This document shows, piece by piece, positions 414 to 30,797 of a DNA stretch of 64,000 nt. Positions within the stretch are counted from its first letter, which is position 1. Each line of letters opens with the position of its first letter. A model generated the notes under the pieces. The model saw nothing but the letters and a program-made list of their open reading frames with translations. It searched no databases and had not been told where the DNA came from. The position numbers were made by a program, and so were the translations under genes. Source of the DNA: a virus. The stretch spans positions 43,633 to 107,632 of IMG/VR virus record IMGVR_UViG_3300031957_001682, one strand, 5' to 3'.

Positions 414-432
414 GGTATATAGAATGATACTA

Positions 433-11959: not shown

Positions 11960-12436
11960 TCAATCACTTCTTTGCGTAAAAGGATTTGGTGGGTCACTAA
12001 AATCTAAGACTCTTTCTTTAGCATGTTGCGGAGGGGGTGCTTGTGGCATCGTACTTCGAGTCATCTGTCTTTGTTGAGCGAAAGATGCTGGATTGATTGT
12101 ACCGCCGGGCGTTGAAGGTGTGGTAGGTACATCATCACCAAGTTCCGGTGATTTAGTTTCATTCTTTTCTGCATTAGGGTCATTTACATTTCCCATTTGC
12201 ATACGGGCTTGTTGATGTTCTTCTCTCCCTGCTCGCATTCGTGCAATAGGAGTTGAAAATGGTTTACCTGTTTTATCAGTTTCTTTCATCTTCAAAAATT
12301 TCCAAGCGTCACCCATTGGGATTGCTTTCTTTTTGCTGTCCGGGTCTGCTGTTTTTTCCGGCGACTTAGGCGGCTTACCACCAAGTGCAATTACAACAAC
12401 CATGCCTTTCTTTTTCTTTTTATCGTCTTCTTTCAT
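11960..12436 (-). CDS. Disordered virion-arm protein with AWxxLK tag
   Basis: 158 residues, ATGA overlap with the stop of large terminase. A lysine-rich N-terminus, Pro/Thr/Gln-rich middle and no globular domain point to disorder. IPMGDAWKFLK (12290 to 12322) is one copy of the peptide tag found in other virion-arm proteins here. Function unknown; tag and position suggest a virion or head-assembly protein. Confidence 0.65.
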   Translation of the reverse strand: MKEDDKKKKKGMVVVIALGGKPPKSPEKTADPDSKKKAIPMGDAWKFLKMKETDKTGKPFSTPIARMRAGREEHQQARMQMGNVNDPNAEKNETKSPELGDDVPTTPSTPGGTINPASFAQQRQMTRSTMPQAPPPQHAKERVLDFSDPPNPFTQRSD

Positions 12437-13923
12437 GGTACTAACCATCCGTCGCCAGTTCCTTTATTTCGATGTGGCATACCACCGATGTACTCATCGA
12501 GTCCCGGTAGTATGTCATCGAGTAGTTGCACTGAACCTTTGAACTCTTTTGTTCCCCAGTTCGCTAAAGCAAGTGCCATTGCCAAGTCATCGTGAGTACC
12601 GACCGATTCAAGTCGCCCATTCTTTTGCATACCGAATCGGTTCAATTCTTCTTCTAATTTGTGAGTGAATGTACGACTTCGCTCATCACCATACGGCAAT
12701 TGAATGTGTCCTTGTTCAAAAGCCATAAGCAAAGACATGAACATACTTTCTTTGCGCTGGCGTGTTGTCATAAAAGTACGAATAGGAATATCGTTTCTCA
12801 TGTCTTGAAGTTCAGCGGCAAACATTCGCTGGAAGTTGTTTCCTTCAAGTTCAATCAAATCCGGCTGGAAGCGATTGTTAAGAGTGAGAATGTGTTTTTT
12901 CTGTGCTAATCCACCAAGTCCTTTTTCGTGAACGATACCGACAATTTGCTTTATGTTTTCACCGGGTGGTGTACGAAGCACAAGCATGGCTGTGTAGTCA
13001 GCGTTCTTATCCGAAGCAATCGCTGTGTCCCATCCAATGAAGTGCTGTCCGAACACACCAGCGGGATTACCTTCTTCGTCGTATTCGGTATCAGCCCTGT
13101 CAAGTAATACCAGTTCATTGTTGCGAGCCTCATTTAGAATTGTAGCAGGGAACATACTCGCAACATCGTGAATAGGTTCACACAAATACTCACGGCTGAA
13201 TTGGATAGCGGGCATGGACATACGCCGTTGCTCAAGTGCCTCAAGATTCCACCGTTCCGGCCAAAGCGCATTACCTTCCCCATCAATAGCAGGGTATGTT
13301 TCGACACGGAATGTTTCTTTTTGCTCAAGTTCTGCGTACAAATCGTTGTACGAAAACGGTGTACCGACCATCATCAAACGAGAAGAGTGGTGCAGAACAG
13401 GCAAAAGAACACCATAGAACCAGTCAGCGGCACGCTGTAGTTCTCCACCTGTAGTACCCCAAAGAATATCGTCGCAAACGACCACATCGGGGTGGAAACC
13501 ACGGGTAGCACCACCAACGGACTTAGCCATCAATCGGCTACCGTTAGTGAACTCAAAGTACGACTTAGCCCACGGTCGGCCACCTTCGGGCTTGAGGTGT
13601 CGAAGAATATCGGATGATTCAATGTTGTTGCGAATAAATCGCATGTGTTCAAGCGTCTGTTCAAGAGAGTGAGAAAAAATCATGATGTGTGTACCGGGTT
13701 TGAAAGCGGCAATCCAAAGAGCATAGGCCATGAACAAAGTGGATTTACCGTGGTCACGACTCGCTTTAACACAGTAGTATCGGTGTTCGTTCAATCCTGT
13801 TTCCCAAGACTCGTGGTGATGACTGTAATGAAAGCCCAAAATTTCTGTAAAGAAATACTTGAATGACTTGGCCGACATTTTGCTATCCATCTCGTGGATA
13901 AACGCATTCATGTCCTCTCCCAT
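12433..13923 (-). CDS. Large terminase subunit (TerL)
   Basis: 496 residues. Packaging motor ATPase and headful nuclease. Walker A is ASRDHGKST (K60), Walker B DVVVCDDI (D151, D152). The RNase H-like nuclease half shows GWDTAIASD, LIELEGNNF and THDDLAMALA with the expected acidic residues. ATG at 13923 is preferred because it has a GGTGA site 6 nt upstream and clears the previous stop by 4 nt; the frame could be extended upstream only by overlapping that gene. The downstream gene is coupled by an ATGA overlap. Confidence 0.95.
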   Translation of the reverse strand: MGEDMNAFIHEMDSKMSAKSFKYFFTEILGFHYSHHHESWETGLNEHRYYCVKASRDHGKSTLFMAYALWIAAFKPGTHIMIFSHSLEQTLEHMRFIRNNIESSDILRHLKPEGGRPWAKSYFEFTNGSRLMAKSVGGATRGFHPDVVVCDDILWGTTGGELQRAADWFYGVLLPVLHHSSRLMMVGTPFSYNDLYAELEQKETFRVETYPAIDGEGNALWPERWNLEALEQRRMSMPAIQFSREYLCEPIHDVASMFPATILNEARNNELVLLDRADTEYDEEGNPAGVFGQHFIGWDTAIASDKNADYTAMLVLRTPPGENIKQIVGIVHEKGLGGLAQKKHILTLNNRFQPDLIELEGNNFQRMFAAELQDMRNDIPIRTFMTTRQRKESMFMSLLMAFEQGHIQLPYGDERSRTFTHKLEEELNRFGMQKNGRLESVGTHDDLAMALALANWGTKEFKGSVQLLDDILPGLDEYIGGMPHRNKGTGDGWLVP

Positions 13924-13927
13924 TGTA

Positions 13928-14758
13928 TCACCGTGTCTTAATATACATGAAAGCGGCGAGTTCACCAATTTCATTTGGTGTCATTTTGTAAAGATTATCG
14001 GGTCCGAGTAAGTCGAATAACATTCCATTAAACGCTTTGGTGGGCATCAATACAGGTCTTGGTTGTCCGGTCACGGGGTCTATGGATGCTTGATACTGCG
14101 CCATCCCCGATGGATTCATTTGTTGTTGAACGGTACTTGCCATATTTGACTGATTCAATACATTGGGAGGTAGTGGTGGATTCATTTGTTGTTCAACGGT
14201 ACTTGCCATATCTTGCTGATTCAATACATTGGGAGGTAATGGCACAGCAGGTGCGGCAGTTGCGGCAGGTTGGGGTAATGCAGGTATGGGTGCGGCAGGT
14301 GCAGATGCTACAGGTGCAGGTACGGATGGTGAAGTTGATACATTTACAAGACCAGTGGATGAAGGTAATGGTACTCCACCTTCATTTGCCGCCATACCCG
14401 GAGCGGGTAATGGGATAGAATTGGGTTTAACCCCGACATGAGAATTTCCTTCAATTTGTCTTGCTGTGAATGCCCCTGTTGGGTCAAGTCCTTGATAGGT
14501 GTACCCTGCTCCAAGTGGAGCGGCTATGTTGCCACCTTGCATTGCATCAGCGGTGCTTAAAGCAGTAGCCCCTAAAGCCGCACCTTTACCAGCAAGTCCA
14601 GCAAGTCCAACCAATCGACCTGTTCTGCTAACTTTGGAACCGGGTTTTGTACCACGACCACGAACCGCATTGAACAAATCCATTGCCGAAGGACTACCTT
14701 GACCCACTGTTTGAAATTGAGTCACATCTGCTTTTACCAAAACTTTGTTGCTCACCAT
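13928..14758 (-). CDS. Low-complexity virion-arm protein with internal duplication
   Basis: 276 residues, rich in Ala, Pro, Gly and Gln. An N-terminal basic part is followed by a small-residue segment (GLAGLAGKGAALGATAL) that could be a glycine-zipper or membrane-active helix, then a Pro/Ala linker. Two 22-residue direct repeats (PLPPNVLNQ..MASTV.QQMN) come from a 66-bp tandem duplication. Directly upstream of TerL. No family; virion protein by context. Confidence 0.65.
   Translation of the reverse strand: MVSNKVLVKADVTQFQTVGQGSPSAMDLFNAVRGRGTKPGSKVSRTGRLVGLAGLAGKGAALGATALSTADAMQGGNIAAPLGAGYTYQGLDPTGAFTARQIEGNSHVGVKPNSIPLPAPGMAANEGGVPLPSSTGLVNVSTSPSVPAPVASAPAAPIPALPQPAATAAPAVPLPPNVLNQQDMASTVEQQMNPPLPPNVLNQSNMASTVQQQMNPSGMAQYQASIDPVTGQPRPVLMPTKAFNGMLFDLLGPDNLYKMTPNEIGELAAFMYIKTR
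14114..14245 (-). repeat. 66-bp tandem duplication
   Basis: Two nearly identical 66-bp units in frame inside the Pro/Ala-rich gene encode two copies of a 22-aa block. The few differences between units suggest a fairly recent duplication. Confidence 0.75.
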
Positions 14759-14759
14759 A

Positions 14760-16961
14760 TCACCCCATGTTTGTTTTTATGACTTTGATAATCTTAGCAT
14801 CAACATTGTAGGACTTAGCGATGTTGTGCCAATCTCCCATTGTTTGATTGATTGTCACGACCTCACTTGCGGTTAGCCCGACATGTTTCGCCAGTGCGTG
14901 TGGATTGTTAAGATTACTGTTAATTTTAATCCCCTCGAATCCGGCTTCTTCTTGTTGCATTCGCTCTAATGCTTTCATCACTCGGTCCATTACCGGTAGG
15001 TGTGCATCTTCGCTTCTTAGGTACTGGTCAAGTAATTGCTGTCTTGGGTCGGAAAGTGATTGTTGCGCCCTTCTTTCAATCGGTGTTAAAAATTCATCCG
15101 GTGCTGGACTTGCTCGACCTCCACCACCAGCAACCATCATTTCTCTAAATTGCTGTGGTGTTTGATTTGCAATCTGTGGTCTAACTTGCTGGAACCGTGG
15201 GTCAAGAGGCGTAGCCGGTGGGCCTTGTGGTCTTACCGCTACAGGAGGAAGAGGTGCCGCACCGGAGGGAGGTGGTGAAGAAACCGGAACCTGCGAAAGA
15301 GCGGAAGCAGGGGATTCCGGTGCGACTGTATCACCACTTGGGCGAATTGGCATGGCTGTACTTTCTGCAAAGTCTTCCATAGGGTGTAGGTATGCATCCA
15401 TGTGAGGGTCGAGTGTGGCATCAACTCCTTCTTCGGGATAATCTAAAAATTGCATATTTTTTGCTGGTTCTGTTTTTATGTCACCAATGGGCATTTTTAC
15501 TGGCAAACCCTGTGATTCTGCTTGGTGGTCGGCTAATGCTTCGATAATACCACGAAAACGCTCGACTTGACCCATAAGCCGCTCATCGTATCGTACACCA
15601 AATGCGTTTAACTGCTCACTGTCAATTGAATGATTACTCAAATTACTTCGCTCGGAGTCATCATCACTTAGACCGGACCTGTGAGCGAGTGCCATAAGAC
15701 GGGCGGCAGTGGTGTCTTTTCCTTTGCTACCACCCCTACCGGGTTTGAAATGACGACTTTGTTCATCATAGGACAAACCTTCTTCTCCTTCACCATAGAT
15801 ACCCATGAGGCTATTGAAATGCTTGTTAAAATCACCTTGACCCGGCCTACCAAACAAATACATCATTGCTGGTACATTTGCCATATCTTGAATTAAACTT
15901 CTTCGTAGTTCACTATCTTGAAGAATGACACGAAGTGGGCGTTGAATCATTTCGGGACTCGCTAAAGTGCCCACATTGATTGTAGCGGGTACATCGGGAA
16001 TTGCATCTATGTTGCCCAAAGCGTTTGTAATGGCCCTTTCAGCCATTTGATATAATCCATTTTTGTGTTCCCAACTACCTTTTTTTCCGGCTTTTTGTCC
16101 ACTTGCTTTTGTGTTAGGATAAAAGAAAATGTCCGGTAGGTGGTGAGTAGTTGATTCAGTGTGTACCGCAGTTTGTTCACTGAAATAATCATCGGGTGCC
16201 CTTGACATGTGTTGTGTGCTTATTTGATTCGGATGTTCTTGATATGAAGCATCAACTCGACCTTTAGGTGCTGTTTCACGAGCGTAAATGTAAGGTCTTT
16301 TTACAAAAGTTAAATCCGATGATACTTCAAATGGAACTCCATGTTCTCTTTCAAGAATTTGACCAAGTTCGTGATTAAAAGGAATAGAATATGATTCAAT
16401 AAAACGACCCATTGGGGTATAGTTTTTGTCACCGGGGGTGAAATTTTTGTTAGTGTAAGTGGTAATCAAAGAACCATTTTTGGTTTTTGTTGGGCGTTCG
16501 GAGTGGCCTTCTGTGCTGTCACCCGGAGGTAGCATTCCAGCCCTAATTTTTCTCCACGCCATGTTGTCAAAAGGTGGTAATGCGTGCATTCCATTATTCT
16601 TATCATCATCACCTTTGTGACTTGTATGGTTTTGATTAAACAATTGAATTGCTTTGTTAATCAAATCGACAGGATGTGCTTTGATACCATGTTTTTCTAA
16701 AAACCACCCTAAGCGTGTAGCCGCCGCATCAATACCGTGTTGATAACTTCCCATTGGTGTGTTGTAGTGTAGTTCACCGTGGTCACCCGGAGCAAACTCA
16801 CCTTCAAGAATTTCTCCTTGAGCATGTGCAAAGGCGGGTACATCTTCTTCTGTAGGTGGTCGAAACGCTGTTGCCGGTGGGTTGCGAATCATTGCCGCAC
16901 CCTGTGGGGTAAAATGCTTCATTCCCCATGCTTTAATCAATGGAAAACGAACAGGTATCAT
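14760..16961 (-). CDS. Large hypothetical virion-arm protein
   Basis: 733 residues. No recognised fold. The N-terminus RFPLIKAWGMK (residues 5 to 15) looks like a degenerate copy of the PxxxAW tag found at the N-termini of other genes in this arm. The body is polar; a Pro-rich linker lies at about residues 540 to 590, and a helical C-terminal domain (QLLDQYLRSEDAHLPVMDRV onward) ends in a possible small HTH-like fold. Start ATG overlaps the stop of the upstream gene by 4 nt. Likely a virion or ejected protein. Confidence 0.65.
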   Translation of the reverse strand: MIPVRFPLIKAWGMKHFTPQGAAMIRNPPATAFRPPTEEDVPAFAHAQGEILEGEFAPGDHGELHYNTPMGSYQHGIDAAATRLGWFLEKHGIKAHPVDLINKAIQLFNQNHTSHKGDDDKNNGMHALPPFDNMAWRKIRAGMLPPGDSTEGHSERPTKTKNGSLITTYTNKNFTPGDKNYTPMGRFIESYSIPFNHELGQILEREHGVPFEVSSDLTFVKRPYIYARETAPKGRVDASYQEHPNQISTQHMSRAPDDYFSEQTAVHTESTTHHLPDIFFYPNTKASGQKAGKKGSWEHKNGLYQMAERAITNALGNIDAIPDVPATINVGTLASPEMIQRPLRVILQDSELRRSLIQDMANVPAMMYLFGRPGQGDFNKHFNSLMGIYGEGEEGLSYDEQSRHFKPGRGGSKGKDTTAARLMALAHRSGLSDDDSERSNLSNHSIDSEQLNAFGVRYDERLMGQVERFRGIIEALADHQAESQGLPVKMPIGDIKTEPAKNMQFLDYPEEGVDATLDPHMDAYLHPMEDFAESTAMPIRPSGDTVAPESPASALSQVPVSSPPPSGAAPLPPVAVRPQGPPATPLDPRFQQVRPQIANQTPQQFREMMVAGGGGRASPAPDEFLTPIERRAQQSLSDPRQQLLDQYLRSEDAHLPVMDRVMKALERMQQEEAGFEGIKINSNLNNPHALAKHVGLTASEVVTINQTMGDWHNIAKSYNVDAKIIKVIKTNMG

Positions 16962-18625
16962 CCCATGTGCCCCCGCTTTGAAGTAAGATAACCAGCGGGG
17001 TCAAGTCCTAAACGACTTGAATTGGTTTCAAGATTTTGAGTAGGACCGTCATTCTTCTCATCTTCATCTTCATTCTGTTGCACACCGGCTGGATGCGCTG
17101 GCACTGCCCCTTCTTCAAAAGCCGACGCTGTACCCGCTTTTTTCATATTGGCTTTTTTTCTTTGAAGTTCAATTAACTGCCTCATCAATTGAAGCATTTC
17201 AACACGATTAGCGTGACGATTACCTTTGAGTAAATCACTTTCAGTACGCTCTTCACTCATCATCATTGTTGACGATGGTGCTGGCATACTCGGAACGCTA
17301 CTCATCGGTGGAGCCATCTGTGGCATTTGTGGCATGGCTGGCACACGAGGCATACGAGGCACACGAGGCATACGAGGGCGGCGCATTCTTCGGAGAGAAG
17401 GCTGTCGCATTTGTCCCGATTGACCCGGTAATAGACCAGTTAAACGCCCAGCACCAGTTGGTCCAGCAGTAAACGACCTTGCGCTGTGACGAGCGTGTGG
17501 AGAATATGTGTTGCGAACACCACCAAGAATTTTTTGTGATTCTTGCTGGCCCATGTATTGACGGTATTTTTGTGGGTCTTTACTCATGGGTTGCTTAGTC
17601 GCAATACCACGGTGACTCATTTCAACAGACAAGTGAGGCTTCATCAAACCTGTTTTCTTTCCACCCTTGATACCACGCATTCTTGCTTTAAATCGCTTCA
17701 TGGTTGCACCAACACCACCGCTTTGCCCACCCGGTGGTTTCTTGAATTGTCCAGTTGAAGGGCGGAACTCTCTTCGTTTTTCACGGCGACGACGAGCCTC
17801 TATTGTACCCATTGTGTCACGCTTAAGTAGTGTACTCCAAGCATCAGCCATTGGTTCACTCATGGTAAAACTTGTTTCATCATTAAACGGTACATCAGTA
17901 AAATCACGATATTTACCTTCTATATCATCAAACGGAGGTTGTGCATCATCAACTTGAAAATTATGTAAATCATATAATTTCTCAAAAAAATCTTCACGAG
18001 ATGTAGCACTTGCTAAGTGGTTTATGTCGGGTTGTTGGAAATCATCTGCAAGACCCTCATACAAATGGGGGTTATCTATCTGTTCTTGAATCCAATTATA
18101 CCATTCGGGGTGAACATCATTACGATTTGGCATTTTGTAATCGTGTTTGTATTGATTTTCACCGGGATGAACCGTAGGTTCTTCTTTCAACAATGTACTC
18201 CAAGCACCATCCATCGGCTCGCCTGTTCTTACGGCTGAATTACCCGTACCCATCGCTGAACCTGTACCTGTCTTTGCACCTGTGGCTAAATCGAGTAAAT
18301 GTCCACGACTACCAGCCGGTCCACCTTGAAGCCCTATCTCACGCTCATCATCACGCTTGTTACCGTCATCAAGACCGGGTTCTGTTTCCAATCCCGCCCC
18401 TTGACCTAACCCTTGAGATGGTTTAATTTTGATGTGTTTGATTTCTTTGGCCTTTTTCTTAGCCTCTTCTTCTTTGAGTTTTTTTGCTTCTGCCCGCTTT
18501 TCATTATCTTCGGGTGAAGTAGGGTTGTATTTACCCTCATCTTCATTAGCAGAAGAATACATGTGAGATGATTCACTACGGGGTGCATACATGCGTGTGT
18601 CCGAACCTCGACCCATAACCATCAT
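16958..18625 (-). CDS. Disordered virion-arm protein with two EPMxxAWSTLLK tags
   Basis: 555 residues, highly charged and Met/Pro/Arg-rich. It carries two copies of the shared tag: GEPMDGAWSTLLK at residues 135 to 147 (18185 to 18220) and SEPMADAWSTLLK at 256 to 268 (17822 to 17857). After the second tag a strongly basic region (ARRRREKRREF, MKRFKARMRGIKGGKK) would bind DNA, followed by an MPRVPRMPRVP repeat. Each tag starts a different module, as in the 909-aa protein. Coupled by ATGA overlap to the upstream gene. Possibly a packaged DNA-binding protein. Confidence 0.65.
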   Translation of the reverse strand: MMVMGRGSDTRMYAPRSESSHMYSSANEDEGKYNPTSPEDNEKRAEAKKLKEEEAKKKAKEIKHIKIKPSQGLGQGAGLETEPGLDDGNKRDDEREIGLQGGPAGSRGHLLDLATGAKTGTGSAMGTGNSAVRTGEPMDGAWSTLLKEEPTVHPGENQYKHDYKMPNRNDVHPEWYNWIQEQIDNPHLYEGLADDFQQPDINHLASATSREDFFEKLYDLHNFQVDDAQPPFDDIEGKYRDFTDVPFNDETSFTMSEPMADAWSTLLKRDTMGTIEARRRREKRREFRPSTGQFKKPPGGQSGGVGATMKRFKARMRGIKGGKKTGLMKPHLSVEMSHRGIATKQPMSKDPQKYRQYMGQQESQKILGGVRNTYSPHARHSARSFTAGPTGAGRLTGLLPGQSGQMRQPSLRRMRRPRMPRVPRMPRVPAMPQMPQMAPPMSSVPSMPAPSSTMMMSEERTESDLLKGNRHANRVEMLQLMRQLIELQRKKANMKKAGTASAFEEGAVPAHPAGVQQNEDEDEKNDGPTQNLETNSSRLGLDPAGYLTSKRGHMG

Positions 18626-19302
18626 TCCACCCCCATGTTTGCTTCAAGTTGCTTTTTAATTCGAGTCCATGTTTCCGGGCTTTCTTTACTTAATTCGATT
18701 GACAACACATTGATTGTTTGATTAATTTGTTGTCCGTCGCTTTGTGCGCCCCATTGGTCTTGGAACCGAAGTAGGTCTTTGACTGTTTCTCGCACTTCTT
18801 TATGCAATATAACAGCATCCCTTACGAAGCCATCTTCGTGTACACTCCCCTCATCAAGTAATTCGGAAAGTTTATGATTTAATTTTTGAGCGTTTGAGCG
18901 TAGTAATTCAATTTCTCGACCTGCTGTAAGTGCTACTTCTAACGCCGCTGTTTTTTGCACCAGCGGTTGAAAGTGATTTTTCATGTGACTATACACTACA
19001 CTTTCACTTATTTCAAGAGCCGTAGCAATGGCATCAGTAGTTCCTCCATTGTTAAAATACTCAAATTCGTATTCAGCCCGATTAGGTGAAGCACATACAG
19101 GGCAAGATGGATTTGCCGCCATGTGGTATTCACCCATGTGATTACGATAATGACGGTCAGCGGTATTGGCTCGCCATCCCATGTTTTTATCCATTTCTTT
19201 AGGTGTGATGTGACCTTGTAAGAGTTGTTCTTCTAACTCATCACGGTCTTCATGAATGCACATTCGGCAAGAGCGTTTGACAACTTTATCACCGCCCTCC
19301 AT
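18622..19302 (-). CDS. Putative small terminase / Zn-HTH DNA-binding protein
   Basis: 226 residues. The N-terminal part has two Zn/HTH-like units: CRMCIHEDRDELEEQLLQGH with a helix-turn-helix, then CPVCASPNRAEYEFE followed by IATALEISESVVYSHMKNH, a good HTH recognition helix. The C-terminal half is coiled-coil and helical. Small terminase subunits usually combine an N-terminal HTH with a coiled-coil oligomerisation core, and it is transcribed with the packaging genes. Start taken at 19302 because a longer frame would run into the divergent gene at 19363. A virion-arm transcription regulator is an alternative. Confidence 0.5.
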   Translation of the reverse strand: MEGGDKVVKRSCRMCIHEDRDELEEQLLQGHITPKEMDKNMGWRANTADRHYRNHMGEYHMAANPSCPVCASPNRAEYEFEYFNNGGTTDAIATALEISESVVYSHMKNHFQPLVQKTAALEVALTAGREIELLRSNAQKLNHKLSELLDEGSVHEDGFVRDAVILHKEVRETVKDLLRFQDQWGAQSDGQQINQTINVLSIELSKESPETWTRIKKQLEANMGVE

Positions 19303-19362
19303 GACAGTGCTACGAGTTGCCTTTAGAAAACTGTTATGGTAAATGTAGTGTTCGCAAAAAAC

Positions 19363-19653
19363 ATGTGGAGGGTAAAAAGAGTAGCAGGTGTGCCGCTTAA
19401 CAAAGAAAGTATTCGTAGCCTTACACAAGCCGCTAAGGATGTTGTAAAAGGTGAATACGCACCTACAAATTTAGTGAAAGAAAGACTTCGTATATGTGGC
19501 ACTTGTCCTCACGGTGGTACAAAATGCTCACTTTGTGGTTGTTTTTTGAAGTCTAAAACAGCATTGCTTAACTCGCAATGCCCAATACACAAATGGCCGT
19601 CAGCGAGTGATACGGGAATAAACACCAGTGAGCATAAGGAAACTACCAAATAA
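19363..19653 (+). CDS. Small Cys-rich viral protein on opposite strand
   Basis: 96 residues, rightward within the leftward arm. ICGTCPHGGTKCSLCGCFL and QCPIHKW form a zinc site of the kind found in many short phage proteins (CxxC..CxxCGC..C). Start ATG 19363 fits the usual N-terminus of that family; ATG 19336 is an in-frame alternative. Its 3' end overlaps the convergent 83-aa membrane protein gene by 54 bp. Function unknown. Confidence 0.65.
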   Translation: MWRVKRVAGVPLNKESIRSLTQAAKDVVKGEYAPTNLVKERLRICGTCPHGGTKCSLCGCFLKSKTALLNSQCPIHKWPSASDTGINTSEHKETTK

Positions 19654-19851: not shown

Positions 19852-19855
19852 AATA

Positions 19856-20470: not shown

Positions 20471-20471
20471 C

Positions 20472-21604: not shown

Positions 21605-21613
21605 ATTTTTCCC

Positions 21614-22330
21614 TCAAGTTGTTAATAAGTCAATCATGGTTTCTTCCACATTCCATCCTATTCGTGTAGCCATAAAAGACCTGCGAGTAGGTATGTTTGC
21701 TTTTTGAAGTCGAATTAAATCATCTCGAAATGCATCAAAGATTTTGTGTTCACCAATGCGGTTTTGTTGCCAAAGCATAGCGGCATTTTCATCAAAAAAT
21801 CGGTCGGCTTTGTTAGCCACAAGCATAACTAAACGAGGTGCGTACTTTTTACCCTTCCAACGACTTTTGAAGTTTCTATACCGATATGAGCGATTGATTA
21901 AACTATCAACAAGATACTTGAAGCCAGCAATTTGTTGCAATGCTTCTTCACCACCTTTTATTGCCCTGTCATCAAAAACAAATAAAACGGCTTCAACTTG
22001 TCTTCCTACCATATCGTCAATCCAAAGATTCCAAAACCGTTCTTGTCCTCCTACATCGGATGAATACACCACTCGCTTTTGTCCTTTCCAAGAAATGCGT
22101 TTACGAGTTGCTTTAGGCATCATGTATCGACCAAGTAATTTCATGTGTGAAGTTCGCTCTTCATCACTTATTTCTTCCATTTCACCCGGAGTTGTCATGT
22201 ATCGGTCAAGTGTAGTTTTACCTACCATTGCCGCTCCATAGACACCTACTTTTCTTGGTCGCCAAGAGTTGTATAACATTTGACCATAAAGAGCCGCACC
22301 TACAAGTGCTGAACCTGCTGGGTCAACCAT
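21614..22330 (-). CDS. Arf/Ras-like small GTPase
   Basis: 238 residues with all recognisable G motifs: G1 GAAMVGKT (residues 32 to 39), G3 DVGGQERFW (92 to 100, the Arf/Sar-type DxGGQ), G4 NKAD (173 to 176) and a G5-like ATRIGWNVEE (221 to 230). G2 is not certain. Residues 5 to 22 (AGSALVGAALYGQMLY) form a small-residue hydrophobic or amphipathic helix, comparable in place to the membrane-binding helix of Arf proteins. It is co-transcribed with two membrane proteins just upstream. Expected activity is GTP binding and hydrolysis at a membrane. Small GTPases are rarely reported in viruses. The fold call is strong; the role is unknown. Confidence 0.88.
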   Translation of the reverse strand: MVDPAGSALVGAALYGQMLYNSWRPRKVGVYGAAMVGKTTLDRYMTTPGEMEEISDEERTSHMKLLGRYMMPKATRKRISWKGQKRVVYSSDVGGQERFWNLWIDDMVGRQVEAVLFVFDDRAIKGGEEALQQIAGFKYLVDSLINRSYRYRNFKSRWKGKKYAPRLVMLVANKADRFFDENAAMLWQQNRIGEHKIFDAFRDDLIRLQKANIPTRRSFMATRIGWNVEETMIDLLTT

Positions 22331-22583: not shown

Positions 22584-22592
22584 TTAACCAAC

Positions 22593-23123: not shown

Positions 23124-23149
23124 GTTGCTCGTTATTGGTCAATTTGGAA

Positions 23150-23159
23150 GCCAATATAA
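23150..23159 (-). promoter_or_regulatory. TATA box of the membrane/GTPase operon
   Basis: CTTATATTGG on the minus strand, about 30 bp from the ATG at 23123, the spacing expected for an archaeal TATA box with a short leader. Confidence 0.55.
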
Positions 23160-23171
23160 GCATTTCGCTAT

Positions 23172-23299
23172 AATTGTCATCATTGTCATAATACCATTCA
23201 AAATAATGAGTAGTATTACTATATATTTAGTGTAGGGGGGTGAAAATGACAAACATTAGTCAATTTGTTGACTACGATGATGACAATTATGACAATTGA
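23172..23299. promoter_or_regulatory. Operator-like region with ATGACA repeats
   Basis: Contains TGTCATCATTGTCAT at 23175 to 23189, the exact 15-mer ATGACAATTATGACA at 23280 to 23294 and the dyad GTCAATTTGTTGAC at 23259 to 23272. The same 15-mer and a GTCAA/TTGAC dyad recur at 32.7 kb. A rightward TATA-like TACTATATATTTAG (23217 to 23230) precedes a strong GGGGGGTGA site and a 17-codon reading frame (23246 to 23299). Confidence 0.55.
23246..23299 (+). CDS. Possible 17-aa leader peptide
   Basis: ATG behind GGGGGGTGAAA, reading MTNISQFVDYDDDNYDN then stop. The ribosome binding site is among the strongest in the window and a TATA-like box lies about 23 bp upstream, but the peptide overlaps the operator repeats, so it may be incidental. 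Confidence 0.25.
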   Translation: MTNISQFVDYDDDNYDN

Positions 23300-23302
23300 C
23301 AA

Positions 23303-26032
23303 TCAAAGTAAGGTTCCTTTGTCCTTGAAATGCCTCGCTCGGTTGGTATGAGGGTCTTCGGGAACAATAGTGTGCTGGCTGGTGTGGCTCATGTCCGGTC
23401 CACCCTGTCCCATAATGTGTCGTTGTCGGCGTTCACGGTTAAGTTCCTCTCGATACTTCACACGCTCCGGGCTGGACTCGTACTTCTTGTCGTACTCCAA
23501 CTTATGCCGCTTGGCTTCGGGGCTTACACGCTCTTTAAGTAATCGCATAGCAATCTCCATTGGTTCGCCTTGCTGTATCATTTGCGGTTGTTGAGATTGT
23601 AAATGATTCCAATACTCATAGGTATCGGGTCTATGTTGTAGCATTTCATTAACCCCCGTTTGATTTGATTGGTCCGATTGATGTGCACCATATTCATGAG
23701 CATACACTCTTGCTTGATTAGCCAACGCAACTCTTTGTTTTTCAGCATCCATTTCGGCTTGGTTTGTAGGTTTGGTCTTTAATCTTTGTAAAAAAGAGGC
23801 TCCTTGCATATCTGTAGGATATTCGGGTTTTACTTGAGATTGTAATGGCCCATGTTGTTGTTCTGCCCATTCATTTATTTCGGGGTTAATTAGACTGTGC
23901 GTATATTCATGCCCAAGAGTGTTTGCTAATCCTTGTATAGATTCATCACTGTCGTTTATACCACGCACATCAGCCCCAATAAAATCCCCATTTGATTGAA
24001 GTCGTGGTTGAGAGCCACCGGTTGTGTAATCACCTTTATTTTGAATTTCTTGCACAGTATTTTTATCCACTCCACTCATTCGATTCATAGTTTGATTGCG
24101 AGGTATTGATAGCAATGCTTCATTGCTAATATCGGCAGGTGTATAAAATCCCTGCATACCTTCTTCGTCATCACCAATATAGAACTCTTTGAGCAAACGC
24201 ATAGCAATATCCATTGGTTCGCCTTGCTGTATCATTTGCGGCTGTTGTACTTGCGGCTGTTGTACTTGCGGCTGTTGTACTTGCGGCTGTTGTACTTGCG
24301 GCTGTTGTAATGGTAATTGTTGTTGATTTGGGTCTGTTGGTTGTACAACTGGGTTAGGTTGCATGTATTGAGCCATTCGTTGATTATAGTCATCCGTAAT
24401 TTGTTCACGATTTTTCCCCCATCTCATTCTGTATGGCTCTTTAGGTCTAACTTCACCTCTTTGATTTGTTTGTTGAAGATTGGGTGTATCAATTTCTGTA
24501 TTTTCTCTTTGTGCTATTTGCCCTCCTATTGATAAAGCGGGTTGTGACATGGCTGTATTTATCTCATTTTGGTTATTTGTTCTCGCATGTGCTGTGTTTT
24601 CTAATACTGAATTTGTAATGGGTGTATTGGTTAAAAATTGTCTTGGTATATTTCCACCGTAATGTGTTGCATCACTAAAATCAACTGTTTGTCCTTGCGC
24701 TGTTTTAAAATTATGACTTGGGCCTATGAAATTTGGATGGTTTTGGTCGAAAGCGGCTTGTCTTATTGCTAATAATTTAGGTTTGGAGTGTGTACCTCCA
24801 CCATGATGACCCACACTTCTATCAATTGCATAACTAAGTGCTTCCGAAGGATTTGTACTCATGGTGCGGTAATTATCACTATGTGTTTTTAAACCATCTC
24901 CACCCATTATTTTTCTTGCATCATCACCCGTAGTTCCGTGATAAGCAACTACAGGGCCGTAAGGTGAAGGAAAGTCTTCATGATGCTCGCCTAAATTAGT
25001 TTGATATTTAAGCAACCGCATAGCGAGGTCCATTGGTTCGCTTCTATAGAATTGTGTTGGGTTTTTTAATGCACCCGGAATTGCAGTTAATTGGTCATCG
25101 AGTAATTGCATTTGTTCGGGCGAAGTATGTGTTTCATCTAATTCTGCTACACGCCCCGATGGTCCCATAGTTCGTTCCCATTGTTGAAAAGTACCATGTA
25201 ATGGGTCCATACCCCCACCTATGTTTCCTGTTAAATCGTTGAGGTTTTCTGTTATAGAAGAAATTACTTTTCCATCCGGTCCTATTTTTGTTGGTACAAT
25301 ATCTTGGAATGATTTTATACCATAGGCTCTTGCTGTTTGTGGGTCAATTAAAGCACCCGGAATTTCAGCATCCATTATCATTTGGGCAAGTTCACGAGCA
25401 CGATGACGCTGTGCTCCTTCCAGTCCTATTCTTGATGGAGGGGCATCTTTACTTCTTGGTAAAAACATACTTGCGGCTCTTTGAAGGTCATAAAGCATAA
25501 ATGGGTTTTTGTTAAGTCGGCGTACACTGTCTTCTTCTAAATCACCATAAATGATTCCTTCGGGGTCTTGATTTTTACCGTATCTTTCCGGTGTACTTTC
25601 AAAACCATACAAATTTAAAGGCCATGCTCTTTTACTTTCGGGTACATCAACAAATTCGCTACCTTGTCTTGGTGTTAAACCCATTGCATGACTCGGAAAA
25701 ACAAACCTTCCTCCAAGTGGCTCATCAGTCATTATGGTTTCAAGTGGTAGTTCTTCCCCTCGACCCATTTCTAAATTATGGTCCCTAAAACTTGTATTTT
25801 CACGATTGGCAAGTTTTCTTGCTAAATGTAAATTTTTACTTGGGTGGTATTTACTGGTATTTTGTGCAGAAGTTAATCTAAGTGACCTATTTGGAGAGTA
25901 TCTTTGGTGAAAACCAGCCATAAGTTCATCGAATTTTCGCTCATTATACTCACGAATAATTTCATCCCAACGCTCATTTTGGTTTTTAAGAAGGAGGAAA
26001 GCCTGTTCCATTGGCTCTAACTCTCTACGCAT
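23303..26032 (-). CDS. Modular virion-arm protein: ART-like and zincin-like modules, four EPMxxA tags
   Basis: 909 residues. Four copies of the tag EPM(D/E)xAMRLLK or close variants lie at residues 6 to 16, 332 to 342, 605 to 615 and 823 to 833, each opening a new module. After tag 2, VVAYHGTTGDDARKIMGGDG and YRTMSTNPSEALSYA resemble an ADP-ribosyltransferase-type fold (HGT...GL...S-T-A). After tag 3, LGHEYTHSLINPE is a zincin-like HExxH (residues 708 to 712), with a second HEYGAH at 779 to 784. After tag 4 a basic C-terminal module (YREELNRERRQRHIMGQGGP) resembles conserved tails of marine viral proteins. A Pro/Gln repeat separates modules 2 and 3. Probably packaged in the head and delivered to the host; catalytic activities are inference. 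Confidence 0.7.
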   Translation of the reverse strand: MRRELEPMEQAFLLLKNQNERWDEIIREYNERKFDELMAGFHQRYSPNRSLRLTSAQNTSKYHPSKNLHLARKLANRENTSFRDHNLEMGRGEELPLETIMTDEPLGGRFVFPSHAMGLTPRQGSEFVDVPESKRAWPLNLYGFESTPERYGKNQDPEGIIYGDLEEDSVRRLNKNPFMLYDLQRAASMFLPRSKDAPPSRIGLEGAQRHRARELAQMIMDAEIPGALIDPQTARAYGIKSFQDIVPTKIGPDGKVISSITENLNDLTGNIGGGMDPLHGTFQQWERTMGPSGRVAELDETHTSPEQMQLLDDQLTAIPGALKNPTQFYRSEPMDLAMRLLKYQTNLGEHHEDFPSPYGPVVAYHGTTGDDARKIMGGDGLKTHSDNYRTMSTNPSEALSYAIDRSVGHHGGGTHSKPKLLAIRQAAFDQNHPNFIGPSHNFKTAQGQTVDFSDATHYGGNIPRQFLTNTPITNSVLENTAHARTNNQNEINTAMSQPALSIGGQIAQRENTEIDTPNLQQTNQRGEVRPKEPYRMRWGKNREQITDDYNQRMAQYMQPNPVVQPTDPNQQQLPLQQPQVQQPQVQQPQVQQPQVQQPQMIQQGEPMDIAMRLLKEFYIGDDEEGMQGFYTPADISNEALLSIPRNQTMNRMSGVDKNTVQEIQNKGDYTTGGSQPRLQSNGDFIGADVRGINDSDESIQGLANTLGHEYTHSLINPEINEWAEQQHGPLQSQVKPEYPTDMQGASFLQRLKTKPTNQAEMDAEKQRVALANQARVYAHEYGAHQSDQSNQTGVNEMLQHRPDTYEYWNHLQSQQPQMIQQGEPMEIAMRLLKERVSPEAKRHKLEYDKKYESSPERVKYREELNRERRQRHIMGQGGPDMSHTSQHTIVPEDPHTNRARHFKDKGTLL
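24240..24310 (-). repeat. 15-bp tandem repeat coding PQVQQ
   Basis: Four and a half copies of GGCTGTTGTACTTGC in frame give a QPQVQ-type linker between the ART-like and zincin-like modules. Confidence 0.85.
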
Positions 26033-26091
26033 ACGCACCAGTTGGTGGTAAAAAGCGATACCATTTAGAATGCTCGCCCGCTACGAGAGTC

Positions 26092-27609
26092 ATGGGCCGA
26101 CATGTTGCTGTGCGTAAAGCACCTACTCCGGCTGATGCTGGGGGTGCAGTTGCAGGTCGAGCCGCCGGAGGCGGTATAGGTAGTGCCATAGGTGGTGTTT
26201 TAGGTTCTATTATCCCCGGTGCTGGCACTGCGGCTGGTGCTTCTGCTGGTGGTGCAGTTGGTGGTGCAGTTGGTGGTGCAGTTGGAAAAGTTGGTGCTAA
26301 GAAAATTGCTGTTGGAGCCGCTGAAATGGCACAAAATCAAGCCAATGCTCAAGCCGCTCAATCACAACAAACCATGCAGAATAACATTCAAAGCGCAAAG
26401 GACACGGCTCAACAAGCCAAAGACCAAGCCGGTATCGAAAAGGCTTGGAAGTTTCCAGCAAGAATGATGCACCCGGAATTTAAATCATATCGGGATAGCA
26501 TTATTGAGCGGGCTAAAAAAGCACCTCGACAAGATGAAGATTTTCGTCAAAACCAGCATTGGAATGAACGCATGGGTCATAAAGAAGGCAGACCCCAAGA
26601 GGCTCGCTACATTCCAAACCAACACTTTGAACATGAAGATGAAGTACACAACATTACTCCATTTCAAGTTGCTTATGCTACATTGCAACACATGAAAGAA
26701 AATAGGTTAATTGATGAAGACAATCACGATGCTGTAGCATTGCGGGAATTACTTCATACTGACCAACCACACCCCGACCCTAATCAAATGGAAAGTGGTA
26801 TGGCTCACATATTTTCTCCTGTAATGGATATTAGGACTATGAGGGGTAAATCAGCACACGCTCAACCATTTATTGACCCAAAGGGTGCAAAAACACAGCA
26901 TATTTACGCACAAGATGTAGTAAAACCCGATAATCTTTCATATTCATCACAAGAAAAAATTGCTGTGCGACCAAAATCAATTGTAAATGAATATATGCCC
27001 GGTAAAAGAGCAAAACCAAGTGAAGAAGAACTTATTGACAGTTTTATTGACACTCCGGCAAGTAAATTACAAAGAAATTTTGGTATTGAAGACAATAGAC
27101 TTGCAGGGCAAGAATATATTGCTCAAAGAAAATATGAAAAAGAACAAGCCAAACAACAAGCGGCTCAACAGGCTCAACAAGAAGCACAGGCTAAAGAAGA
27201 ACAATTTCAACAACAACCAATAACAGTAAATGATATGGGCGGTGTGTACTTTGTCACAGACCCCGCTTACGGTTATAATGGTGAAATGATGGATTATCAA
27301 CAATTAGTTCAAGGTGGGTATGACAAATATCTTAACAATGATAACAAAAGTGAACCAATGGACTTAGCGTGGCAAATGTTGTTTAAAGCGGGTGTTGAAG
27401 TTCACCACGATGAACCACTGCCGCAAGAGTTTACTCAAGACATTACTACACTTGACCGTCAACACAAAATGGTTCCAACAGAAAACGGCACTATGATTGA
27501 CAATATCAGCCCACACATGCTCCGTACCATTGAACTAATGGCGCAAAATCACAAAGATGATGATACTTTCACACCTAAACCATTTAAAATGCCTACAACT
27601 TTTCATTGA
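26092..27609 (+). CDS. Glycine-zipper protein with tag near C-terminus
   Basis: 505 residues, rightward inside the leftward arm. Residues 17 to 72 are a long glycine-zipper (AGGGIGSAIGGVLGSIIPGA then GGAVGG repeats), a pattern of membrane-inserting or pore-forming proteins, followed by a Gln/Ala-rich coiled coil. A second coiled coil is at about residues 345 to 385. SEPMDLAWQMLFK (27352 to 27387) is a tag copy near the C-terminus. ATG 26092 is preferred over TTG 26011, which would overlap the divergent 909-aa gene. Possible DNA-ejection or pore protein; inference from composition. Confidence 0.65.
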   Translation: MGRHVAVRKAPTPADAGGAVAGRAAGGGIGSAIGGVLGSIIPGAGTAAGASAGGAVGGAVGGAVGKVGAKKIAVGAAEMAQNQANAQAAQSQQTMQNNIQSAKDTAQQAKDQAGIEKAWKFPARMMHPEFKSYRDSIIERAKKAPRQDEDFRQNQHWNERMGHKEGRPQEARYIPNQHFEHEDEVHNITPFQVAYATLQHMKENRLIDEDNHDAVALRELLHTDQPHPDPNQMESGMAHIFSPVMDIRTMRGKSAHAQPFIDPKGAKTQHIYAQDVVKPDNLSYSSQEKIAVRPKSIVNEYMPGKRAKPSEEELIDSFIDTPASKLQRNFGIEDNRLAGQEYIAQRKYEKEQAKQQAAQQAQQEAQAKEEQFQQQPITVNDMGGVYFVTDPAYGYNGEMMDYQQLVQGGYDKYLNNDNKSEPMDLAWQMLFKAGVEVHHDEPLPQEFTQDITTLDRQHKMVPTENGTMIDNISPHMLRTIELMAQNHKDDDTFTPKPFKMPTTFH

Positions 27610-27617
27610 GGGATAGT

Positions 27618-27734
27618 ATGGAATGGCGTTATTGGGCTGATGCTGTACTTGCTGTTTGTTTAATTCCTATTTTACTCATTGCAATAACGGTACTTTATGT
27701 TCCTTTTCGTTTAATGCAATTTGTTGTGCGATAG
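27618..27734 (+). CDS. 38-aa membrane peptide
   Basis: 38 residues, nearly all one TM helix (ADAVLAVCLIPILLIAITVL). GAGGG lies 5 nt before the ATG and the gene follows the glycine-zipper gene by 8 nt. Its end overlaps the convergent lyase gene by 59 bp. Small size keeps confidence moderate. Confidence 0.5.
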   Translation: MEWRYWADAVLAVCLIPILLIAITVLYVPFRLMQFVVR

Positions 27735-28521
27735 TTGATGCAACTTTAAGTGTGTCAATGCACACACCGGTTTCAAAACCCCATACATTAAGATGCAATA
27801 CCAGTGTTTCGGTTGACAAGTTTGCTCCACTATTGTCAACAAACGGACAACCGCCGAGTCCACCGATGCTTGAGTCAAACTCACGAACACCAGCCATAAG
27901 ACCCGCACGAATTAGTTGCAATGCTTTTTCTTCGTCACCTTTGTGATGTAAATGCAATGCGGGAGTCATACCTTCGAGTATAGCCATCTCGGACCACAAA
28001 TGTACCTCTTCTCTTGTTCCTACCCCCACTGTATCAGCAAACACTACAGTATTGCCAAACATTTTTGCATCTTTAATGCACGATTGCATGGTTAATGGGG
28101 AAACTTGACCACTGAATGGACTACCAAACGCCATGCTGATGTACACACGCACATTTTCCTTTGGTGTTTTATCCAAGAATGTTTTGTACATCAACACAAG
28201 TTCACTTCGGGTTTTTCGCATGTTTTTCATGTTGAAGGTTTCACACGGGCTAATGACTATGTTGATTTTTTTAGCACCAACAGCAATGGCTCGGTCAAAA
28301 CCACGCTTGTTCATGACAAGCGCACCGCCACGCTGATACACTTTTTCAGCATCAGCCATTTGCGGCACAAGTTTTGGGTGTGCAAAACTAACTTCTTCAA
28401 TTTCTGTCAAGCCAGCGTCGTATAATGCATCAATAAGTTCGGTTTTTTTAGAAGTGGGTATTGGAAATTTAAGTGATTGCAAACCGTCACGAGGGCCAAC
28501 CTCGTACACGGTCACTTTCAT
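27676..28521 (-). CDS. HMG-CoA lyase-family enzyme (DRE-TIM metallolyase)
   Basis: 281 residues, near the normal length of about 300. HMG-CoA lyase splits 3-hydroxy-3-methylglutaryl-CoA into acetyl-CoA and acetoacetate with a divalent metal. Family residues are visible: VGPRDGLQ (R11, D12), IEEVSFAHPKLVPQM (E42), ADTVGVG, metal ligands H190 and H192 in LHLHHKGD, and the active-site loop GLGGCPF (C225) with N234 and E238. The Asp after that Glu is Thr here. All known catalytic positions appear kept, so it is probably active. ATGA overlap with the upstream membrane-protein gene shows it belongs to the virion-arm operon. Related aldolase-type lyases cannot be excluded. Confidence 0.88.
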   Translation of the reverse strand: MKVTVYEVGPRDGLQSLKFPIPTSKKTELIDALYDAGLTEIEEVSFAHPKLVPQMADAEKVYQRGGALVMNKRGFDRAIAVGAKKINIVISPCETFNMKNMRKTRSELVLMYKTFLDKTPKENVRVYISMAFGSPFSGQVSPLTMQSCIKDAKMFGNTVVFADTVGVGTREEVHLWSEMAILEGMTPALHLHHKGDEEKALQLIRAGLMAGVREFDSSIGGLGGCPFVDNSGANLSTETLVLHLNVWGFETGVCIDTLKVASTIAQQIALNEKEHKVPLLQ

Positions 28522-28718
28522 TCAATTCCCTTCCTCATACCGTTCCAGCACCCTTCTTCCAATTCTTCTTTAGTAGAAAAGTAAATTACATCACTACCGA
28601 GGTCATCAAATAAAAACCATACAAAAGCAAAACCCGCAATAAAAGCAAGTCCAAAAAAAAGCCACAAACTCATGTTGTAAGACAGTGCGGTGTAGAAATT
28701 AAACCTTTCGCTAATCAC
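28518..28718 (-). CDS. Single-TM membrane protein
   Basis: 66 residues with one TM segment at about residues 16 to 38 (MSLWLFFGLAFIAGFAFVWF) and a charged C-terminus. GTG start overlaps the upstream stop; an internal ATG at 28673 would remove the first 15 residues. Translationally coupled to the HMG-CoA lyase, so the two may act together at the membrane. Confidence 0.6.
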   Translation of the reverse strand: MISERFNFYTALSYNMSLWLFFGLAFIAGFAFVWFLFDDLGSDVIYFSTKEELEEGCWNGMRKGIE

Positions 28719-29659
28719 TGTCCACCAATAAATGGCGAAGTGCTTCTTGCGGCTCGGCCTTGCATACGAGGTGTGACTCTTGGCTCATCCATTTGTCCAC
28801 GCTTGTTTTGACGAGGACTTCCTCTTAAGTTTGTTGAAGCAATGTTATGTGCCGCTGGATTGTTTTCATGAAGTGGTTCATTTTCATATTCACTCTCTAC
28901 ATCGTCATCATACATTTGATTTAGGTCAAAAATACTTCCGCCCTCATCGTATGTTCTATCGACTATATCCGGCTTACCCGCTTTACGACCTGCGCCAGCG
29001 GCCCAATCATGCAAACTATTTTGTAAGTGTTGAGTTGTAACGGGTTTTTGAGTGAATGGGTTTTCAAATGGGCCTAATCGGTTTAAATGACCTACATACT
29101 CGTCATGCCAATCGGGGTCATGTGAGGCCATTTCATTACTTATGTCATCACTACCAACAGGAGGTCTGCCGGAACTTCCAGCCCGGCCTTCGTTTGGGGC
29201 TGGACCCCTGCCGCCAATTGAACGACTCATAGGCATACCTGTTTCATCCATTTCCGGCATACCCATTGCATCCATTTCATCGGCTTCGGGTTGTTGACCC
29301 ATGCGGGCAAGAGTTTGTCGGTCAAGGTCGTCTTGTAATCTTTCAAAGTGACTTTCTTCACCTTCATGACCCATAGCGTTAATGAGTTGGTCCTCTATTT
29401 CCTTTTGATTGAGCCTTTGGTTATCTAAAAATGCCATAGCGTCAGCCATACTGTTAATATGTGGAGTTTGAGTACCCGCCATTTCAATTTCATTTAATGC
29501 ATGTTTTTGTCTGCTTGCGGCATCAACACGCCTATCAGTCAAATCTTGTGGACTCAAACTTCTTGCAGGGTTATCGCCGTCTATGGTTGGTGGGGGTAAA
29601 TTTAGTTCGTGACCACGCTGTTTCAATAGCATCCACGCTTGATTAAAAGGGGCGACCAT
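28715..29659 (-). CDS. Tagged, mostly disordered virion-arm protein
   Basis: 314 residues. The N-terminus APFNQAWMLLK (29621 to 29653) is a tag copy. The rest is polar, Asp/Glu/Met/Pro-rich and probably disordered, ending in a basic Arg-rich tail. No domain recognised. The tag at the very start is comparable with the next upstream gene. Confidence 0.65.
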   Translation of the reverse strand: MVAPFNQAWMLLKQRGHELNLPPPTIDGDNPARSLSPQDLTDRRVDAASRQKHALNEIEMAGTQTPHINSMADAMAFLDNQRLNQKEIEDQLINAMGHEGEESHFERLQDDLDRQTLARMGQQPEADEMDAMGMPEMDETGMPMSRSIGGRGPAPNEGRAGSSGRPPVGSDDISNEMASHDPDWHDEYVGHLNRLGPFENPFTQKPVTTQHLQNSLHDWAAGAGRKAGKPDIVDRTYDEGGSIFDLNQMYDDDVESEYENEPLHENNPAAHNIASTNLRGSPRQNKRGQMDEPRVTPRMQGRAARSTSPFIGGQ

Positions 29660-29683
29660 GTTAATCGCAGGTAAATCAAATAC

Positions 29684-29797
29684 TTAACGATTAAGAAACA
29701 TTTGATTATTCAATGTGATATAAGACCACGAAATAAACACAACCACTAAAAGGGCCAATGCTAATGCGTCACTGCGGGTTATTTCCTTGCCTTTCAT
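29684..29797 (-). CDS. 37-aa membrane peptide
   Basis: 37 residues: a short basic N-terminus (MKGKEITRSD) and one TM helix (ALALALLVVVFISWSYITL). Overlaps the 3' end of the 342-aa gene by 29 bp, which is compatible with coupling. Confidence 0.5.
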   Translation of the reverse strand: MKGKEITRSDALALALLVVVFISWSYITLNNQMFLNR

Positions 29798-30797
29798 AAA
29801 AACCTTGATTATTATAATATCCGTCGTACAACGGAGGGGATTCATTTTCAAAATTTGGGTCAAATCTTTGTTGCTTGGTATTTCTTGCCATTGGTTGTGT
29901 GGTATCATACTTCGCCGTTTCCGCTATATGACCTTGACCTCGCCTAATTTTAAGTCTGTCTTGTTCGGCTAACTCATCCATGTTTCTTGCTTGATTTTTT
30001 TGATTGACGATAGGAATTGCACCGTAATCTTGTCTGTTTAATCCACTACGCTGTCCTCGTGCATCAAGGAACTGTGGTACATCTTGCCGTTGATAACCAA
30101 GTGCTTGATGATGACTACCATCATCTTCTGTAAGGTGGTCACCTTTAATATTCGCTGGTAAATTTTGCATAAATTTACGATGGAATGGGTCGGATTGGTA
30201 GTTTCGTTCGTTTGATACTATTGGAATACCTGCTCCAATTAAGGCTTGCATTAAATTCCTGTACATATTTTGTCTTCGATATGGTTCCGGTGTACTACCG
30301 TAAAAATCATGGATTTGTGGGTTGTATTTATCTCCACCATGTCCCGATATTTGTGAAAGCACTTCACCTTCATCATTTACAAGTGAAAAATCTTTCTTAC
30401 CACGATTATTATCACGAGGTGATATCTCAATTCGGGAGGGAACAGCCTCACGACGATTACTTTCACGACCCATTCTCGCATTTAATTTTCGCTGTTCCGA
30501 TACCTTTGGGTCACGATTTATACTACCATCGTTTTCAAATGTGGTTTGAAATGGCTGGTTTTTGGGCCACGGGTAATCGGGATTTTTCTTAGTCATCATT
30601 CCAGCGAGTATTCGTTCTGCTGATTCTTCAATTAGTTCATCATACCTTTCATCAGTCATCCAGTGCGGTTGTGGATTTGCGCCTCTTGCCAACTCATACG
30701 CTTTATGTTGCAATTGAAGATTGATTTCTTCCACCAGTGTTAGCGGGTACGGCTCATTTTTCAACAAAGCCCATGCAGAATTGAATGGACCTTCCAT
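29769..30797 (-). CDS. Tagged virion-arm protein, first gene of the leftward arm
   Basis: 342 residues. Opens with GPFNSAWALLK (30759 to 30791), a tag copy. The middle part, about residues 145 to 220 (SLVNDEGEVLSQISGH, then YRRQNMYRNLMQALIGAGI), looks globular and is loosely like an acetyltransferase-type domain, but this is uncertain. A polar tail follows. A TATA box (minus-strand ATTTTTTATAC, 30819 to 30829) lies about 27 bp before the ATG, so the message is nearly leaderless. Confidence 0.65.
   Translation of the reverse strand: MEGPFNSAWALLKNEPYPLTLVEEINLQLQHKAYELARGANPQPHWMTDERYDELIEESAERILAGMMTKKNPDYPWPKNQPFQTTFENDGSINRDPKVSEQRKLNARMGRESNRREAVPSRIEISPRDNNRGKKDFSLVNDEGEVLSQISGHGGDKYNPQIHDFYGSTPEPYRRQNMYRNLMQALIGAGIPIVSNERNYQSDPFHRKFMQNLPANIKGDHLTEDDGSHHQALGYQRQDVPQFLDARGQRSGLNRQDYGAIPIVNQKNQARNMDELAEQDRLKIRRGQGHIAETAKYDTTQPMARNTKQQRFDPNFENESPPLYDGYYNNQGFYERQGNNPQ

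Follow-up and report, generated by a model that had tools for sequence, protein, structure and literature searches.

A short peptide on otherwise unrelated proteins of a marine archaeal tailed virus lineage, probably a tag for virion cargo

Encapsulins take up unrelated cargo by means of short, often C-terminal cargo-loading peptides that dock it to the shell interior. To our knowledge, virion cargo signals are known in very few viruses, each limited to a handful of proteins. In phage T4, a capsid-targeting sequence of 10-19 residues on unrelated internal proteins (IPI-III and Alt, an ADP-ribosyltransferase) loads them into the prohead core and is cut by the prohead protease; it is an N-terminal propeptide cleaved by gp21, for example at LIE (PMC9026906). 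In phage P1, the N-terminal 30 residues of the large anti-restriction protein DarB are enough to direct a reporter to the head (PMC9024508). Polyvalent proteins are described as multi-domain products of late genes that combine ADP-ribosyltransferase (ART) and zincin-like metallopeptidase domains and are thought to be injected and then proteolytically separated (PMC5512222). The present analysis concerns a peptide of 10-16 residues, P(M/F)xxA(W/M) followed by Leu-(Leu)-Lys, that recurs in a window of 64,000 nucleotides (bases 43633-107632 of the 107,632-base viral record IMGVR_UViG_3300031957_001682). This peptide is probably a virion cargo tag of a marine archaeal tailed virus lineage, in which a docking helix would be joined to a cut site for an S78 protease and the cargo would be injected.

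The tag is real and occurs far beyond chance. Across ten genomes of the lineage, the virion-arm strand (203,769 residues) carries 79 copies of the strict tag versus three on the other strand (106,202 residues), and two of those three tags lie in inverted virion-type genes, one of them the 532-residue gene of the window. In 200 shuffles of the virion-strand proteins, the mean was 1.28 tags and the maximum 5. A strict DNA pattern encoding EPM(D/E)xAWxxLLK matched 70 stretches among 2.9 million viral contigs, where a reversed-peptide control pattern matched none, and had no match in 257 Gb of cellular sequence holding one genome for each of 84,980 prokaryote species; whether unrelated cellular proteins match equally often, a question raised by the first-pass annotation of this DNA, was thereby answered with 70 viral stretches versus 0 cellular ones. 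IMG/VR records are metagenomic and mostly fragments; contig counts given here include close relatives, and context counts are deduplicated without phylogenetic weighting. A coincidental or low-complexity similarity, for which only the shortness of the pattern could be cited, is refuted by the shuffles (79 tags observed vs 1.3 expected) and by the reversed control (0 vs 70), and its probability is negligible. The 151 distinct contexts comprise 89 peptides in 137 DNA versions, with Glu, Pro, Leu and Lys each encoded by synonymous codons; because codons vary freely, selection acts on the peptide and not on the DNA.

The tag follows one lineage of viruses. A relative of the window's terminase was present in 49 of 50 contigs bearing the strict pattern (identity of 71-100% in nearly all, 53% in two); the remaining contig is a fragment of 9 kb. 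At least 119 stretches of viral contigs matched a second pattern, Mxx F(D/E)xAWxLLK, which describes the tag as found at N-termini; 39 of 50 such contigs checked have the terminase, mostly about 75% identical or, in a second clade, about 45% identical. Three genomes of the latter clade contain 9-15 tags each, versus 0.15-0.25 in shuffles; all but one are on the virion strand and most are N-terminal, 8-12 proteins of each genome being tagged in this way. In cellular genomes, the second pattern matched 15 stretches, of which three encode the peptide in frame, in no case at a clear protein N-terminus; as none resembles the tag, these matches were taken as chance. The tag was also absent from HVTV-1 and from two methanogen-type viruses. 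Viruses of Magrovirales/Poseidoniales are archaeal Caudoviricetes with an HVTV-like capsid protein, two opposed arms, an ERCC4 nuclease, a chaperonin and an HMG-CoA lyase-like gene. The window virus, compared with them by these traits, has a major capsid protein (MCP) 37% identical to that of HVTV-1, ERCC4, TCP-1/cpn60 and an HMGL-like gene, and its capsid protein, gene content and marine source suggest a lineage that may be magrovirus-like, with a putative Poseidoniales host.

Genes were called by simple open reading frame (ORF) rules, and within the 64-kb window a six-frame regular-expression scan was run in a strict and a looser version, the latter allowing F for W/M. The strict version gave nine matches, each within the tagged genes, and the looser one caught a tenth (25985-26017, EPMEQAFLLLK). 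The ten good copies reported by the first-pass annotation are all in frame and inside ORFs, where it had placed them, and are spread over six genes of 162, 555, 911, 532, 314 and 342 residues. It had counted seven virion-arm genes; the seventh, which encodes a 63-residue DUF5872-like protein (11767-11958, -), has only the variant MTTAWDALEK (11899-11928, -). This weaker copy is a true variant, as the full tag adjoins the DUF5872-like domain in 26 of 33 distinct contexts. Two other suggested copies were dropped: that at 16917-16946 is not a tag, only LIK/LLK being kept in orthologues, and IIAWESLEK of the 1978-residue protein, which is common to two close relatives and absent elsewhere, is probably not one. 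The rightward arm was confirmed to be without tags, its matches being weak and chance-like (38097, 54105).

The 162-residue gene (11960-12448, -) bears IPMGDAWKFLK (12290-12322, -), and AMKKAWEFLK is kept in a relative of this gene. The 555-residue gene (16958-18625, -) is a conserved late gene with two internal tags, GEPMDGAWSTLLK (18185-18220, -) and SEPMADAWSTLLK (17822-17857, -), and a variable insert; its orthologues have one to three tags with differing material in between. N-terminal tags begin the products of the 314-residue gene (28715-29659, -), with (MV)APFNQAWMLLK at 29621-29653 (-), and of the 342-residue gene (29769-30797, -), with (ME)GPFNSAWALLK at 30759-30791 (-). The tag SEPMDLAWQMLFK (27352-27387, +) belongs to a 505/532-residue gene (26011-27609, +), the N-terminal half of whose product is of glycine-zipper type; this is the lone plus-strand gene in the leftward arm, and the PHROGs matched by that N-terminal half are those of tail-associated lysin and tape-measure proteins. 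The remaining four copies are in the 911-residue gene discussed below. Outside the window, the same genome has five further tag-like copies, of which those in genes at genome 9916, 10548, 11195 and 39378 are N-terminal or nearly so and that at 38532 is internal. A weak overlap of the tag with PHROG 9713 (23 positions) in one window protein was not used, because the family gives no match with short tag peptides and its genome search is positive in 12 of 14 control genomes.

The carriers are mostly accessory genes. In line with the first-pass annotation, tagged proteins are otherwise unrelated, and tagged ORFs form 59 clusters by similarity. No tag is found in the conserved genes for portal, capsid protein, terminase, tail and neck of the window's genome, and its tagged genes, with the 555-residue gene as the main exception, are absent from most relatives or only partly kept. 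The portal gene (7763-9550, -) does contain, at about residue 146, an internal tag-resembling VDDAFLILVKEYY, which is unmatched in some relatives and was taken as coincidence. ART-fold domains follow immediately after the tag (LLK-MPYHGTT...), other recognised cargo comprises an HExxH module, HD hydrolase, SLOG, DUF5872, DUF6321, NUDIX and GP88, and the tagged set also includes small basic proteins. ART, HD hydrolase, SLOG, DUF5872/6321 and NUDIX would fit cargo of the injected-effector kind, and were counted in favour of a role in loading.

The position of the tag is not fixed. Most of the 281 distinct contexts are internal (164); the others lie no more than 30 residues from an end, 101 of them near the N-terminus and 16 near the C-terminus. 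An expectation that the tag would stand at N-termini or at module starts therefore held in part: it is found at both, but also at C-termini, and one domain is tagged on either side. In most relatives the tag precedes this SPEAKRHK domain by 3 residues, and in another clade it is C-terminal, 5 residues behind the domain; DUF5872 proteins have a C-terminal MDDAWQILK or its variant AFDDAWNTLNR in some viruses and none in others. Because the same domains bear it in differing positions, the tag is a portable element and not a leader peptide. A linker or mini-domain without common function that was spread by recombination would agree with the plain shuffling of modules and with the longer repeat, QQPQMIQQGEPM, that two copies in the 911-residue gene share. 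It is nonetheless very improbable, since the peptide is fixed while synonymous codons vary, the tag occurs on either side of one domain and on about 60 unrelated families, and both the replication arm and cellular genomes are free of it.

The 909/911-residue protein (23303-26038, -) is a four-tag modular, polyvalent-protein-like product in which several conflict-type domains, namely an ART-like module, an HExxH module and a PHROG 6437 domain, form one polypeptide near virion genes. After its N-terminal tag, EPMEQAFLLLK, a second tag (EPMDLAMRLLK, 25007-25039, -) precedes the ART-like module (YHGTT...; 24479-25036 with the tag, -), a third (EPMDIAMRLLK, 24188-24220, -) precedes a zinc-metallopeptidase-like module (HEYTH ... 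HEYGA; 23549-24184, -) and a fourth (EPMEIAMRLLK, 23534-23566, -) precedes the C-terminal SPEAKRHK domain of the PHROG 6437 family (23306-23524, -). The ART-like module was recognised from alignments A2 and A5 and from PDB profile matches; for alignment A5, which includes it, and the related family A6, nearly all matches are ART-fold chains. A profile of the PYHGTT family matched Tpt1/KptA phosphotransferases, catalytic domains of exotoxin-A type and DarT (best E 0.0014), the profile with the window's module matched the same PDB group at E 0.07-0.9, and Pfam ART-PolyVal (0.0023) and Tpt1 (0.0026) each match one tagged protein. PDB sequence searches with single modules found nothing useful. The window's own module may thus be called ART-like by alignment and a weak profile match, not by fold. 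For the metallopeptidase-like module, the motif HE(Y/T)(T/V)H...HE(Y/F)GA is kept in two relatives and makes it a candidate metallopeptidase, with no family match found; alignment A3 pairs it with the same module in relative genome G038, where the order is tag-module-tag-HD.

The end of the tag has features of its own. The strict expressions demand Lys, and this residue is free of bias only in a count anchored on (P/A/S)(M/F)xxAW: in 175 such contexts, hydrophobic-Lys follows in 166, with Lys at W+4 in 67 and at W+5 in 98 and Leu at W+3 common to both. Most copies also have (V/I/F/L)xx(S/G)E ahead of Pro. The floating Lys suggests two sub-motifs, a P(M/F)xxA(W/M) helix and a Leu-(Leu)-Lys tail of variable spacing. 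The LK sub-motif occurs without the helix at places where cutting by a prohead protease would be expected: just ahead of the protease domain as (A/S)LLK|(S/G/A), where protease and scaffold meet as (I/L)LK|E(D/H), and in the capsid protein N-arm as (E/D)(L/I)LK|AD, for example SELLK|AD; the pre-protease and capsid N-arm sites are found also in the clade with about 45% terminase identity. At the boundary of the SPEAKRHK domain, two-hydrophobic-Lys is present in 28 of 31 contexts and the whole tag in only 18. Peptidase_S78 is the prohead serine protease family, and the N-terminal part of a prohead protease-scaffold protein matching it (Pfam, 1.1e-9) lies at 1-491 (-) of the window (504 residues; genome 42609-44123), the proposed processing enzyme. 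An ALIK ahead of its protease domain (348-359, -) is a candidate autocleavage site by alignment, and two-hydrophobic-Lys stands at this position in every genome with a called ORF covering the protease N-terminus, and in the more distant clade too. Cleavage of the HK97 MCP takes place at K103/S104 (PMC10275583). The invariant Lys after Leu(-Leu), which the first-pass annotation overlooked, is probably a maturation-protease site. The C-terminus of the protease-scaffold protein (genome 42609-44123) and a protein encoded at 7017-7352 (-) share a near-identical end, NMSW(D/E)(E/D)(V/I)H(N/E)(L/M)A, kept at the scaffold C-terminus in nine genomes and perhaps a second, scaffold-type linear motif.

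The peptide might be a protease recognition element only, with the helix serving to offer the LLK bond to a protease, either the maturation enzyme or the metallopeptidase module, and the cargo entering otherwise. Such a role would account for hydrophobic-Lys being kept at module boundaries after loss of the helix and for its presence without the helix at protease, scaffold and capsid sites. Yet a lone N-terminal cut is of little evident use to single-domain proteins of 60-200 residues, and C-terminal tags 2-6 residues from the end are hard to explain. Furthermore, because the capsid protein and the protease have LLK without PMxxAW, the helix would be unneeded for cutting if both are cut there. 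A purely proteolytic role is therefore unlikely.

A virion cargo tag would instead assign a function to each part of the peptide. The segment (V/I/F)xx(S/G)(E)P(M/F)xxA(W/M/F) would form a short, capped and amphipathic helix by which cargo docks to an interior part of the assembling head, whether scaffold, portal or capsid protein, and the L(L)K tail would be a cut site for the scaffold-fused S78 prohead protease. Tagged proteins would be collected into the prohead during assembly; upon maturation, the protease would cut after Lys, freeing N-tagged proteins and splitting multi-tag proteins into modules, and the freed cargo would be ejected with the DNA and act on the new host. A different partner can be imagined, a late hub outside the head (for example the group II chaperonin, an adaptor of the tail or baseplate, or a protein of the host) to which the tag binds for folding, assembly or lysis and not for packaging. 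The virus does encode a TCP-1/cpn60 chaperonin, and tags occur all through the late arm, also beside tail genes. This idea is quite unlikely, as the core structural proteins, which would be its natural clients, are tagless while accessory, enzyme-like and fast-changing genes are tagged, and ART, HD and metallopeptidase domains suit injected proteins better than assembly factors.

Several points weigh against a cargo tag of the kind proposed. A cut after Lys leaves a C-terminal tag on its cargo, and release therefore cannot work for these proteins as for those with N-terminal tags. HVTV-1 lacks the tag although its MCP is 37% identical to that of the window virus, and the docking partner must therefore be lineage-specific. 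Structure predictions for the ART-like and metallopeptidase-like modules were of very low confidence (pLDDT 41 and 40, respectively). Finally, the excess of N-terminal hydrophobic-Lys outside tags, in 15.6% of virion-arm families versus 7.7% of others (p = 0.0046), is modest and comes from families that are not fully independent.

More broadly, and as a tentative proposal, one portable, position-independent peptide code may serve throughout the lineage to load and release injected effectors whose repertoire is open-ended and changes fast, with polyproteins cut at the tag by the maturation protease. One motif marks 9-15 proteins per genome in several whole genomes of uncultured marine archaeal viruses, and genes annotated as 'hypothetical protein' could become a predicted list of injected effectors, including any archaeal counter-defence genes, readable from sequence. 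The tag may also serve to bring proteins into the capsid of an archaeal virus, and it would make bench-testable whether capsid-maturation proteases double as polyprotein processors.

Other genes of this genome were observed alongside the tagged ones. A Ras/Roc-like small GTPase is encoded in the virion arm (21614-22330, -; Pfam Roc, E 0.0036) and has a relative in nine of nine other genomes. Beside the portal gene, a 432-residue gene (9547-10845, -) has a C-terminal HNH/LAGLIDADG-like part (PHROG 5046, 2.8e-9); it is kept in eight of nine genomes and is therefore perhaps not a selfish element. The HMG-CoA-lyase-like gene is in the late arm (27676-28521, -), the group II chaperonin gene (TCP-1/cpn60, 4.8e-125) in the early arm (genome 5185-6687, +), and a single ORF of 6359 residues occupies genome 11527-30606 (-), outside the window in the tail region.

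Compared from general knowledge, encapsulin peptides differ from this tag in being non-viral, uncut and not repeated within one protein. The 911-residue protein resembles the polyvalent proteins of phages and conjugative elements, whose domain separation is ascribed to the embedded metallopeptidase, with no common inter-domain loading and cutting tag described in the text available (PMC5512222); multi-tag proteins would work in a similar way, but the majority of tagged proteins here are small, with a single domain. The P1 signal is N-terminal on DarB and is not described, in the available part of that report, as a short motif across dozens of families (PMC9024508). Like the T4 capsid-targeting sequence, the tag is a short peptide on several unrelated proteins, but it is N-terminal in only about a third of cases, otherwise internal or C-terminal, is repeated within one protein and ends in Leu-Lys. 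Comparison with the N-termini of T4 IPI, IPII, IPIII and Alt found no similarity, and because neither the position rule nor the sequence agrees, the tag does not belong to the T4 family. The T4-like loading suggested by the first-pass annotation thus survives in its virion-arm bias, unrelated carriers and ART-like module, and not in sequence or N-terminal rule. By analogy, the best reading is that the tag works like the capsid-targeting sequence of T4 (PMC9026906) and the DarB signal of P1 (PMC9024508).

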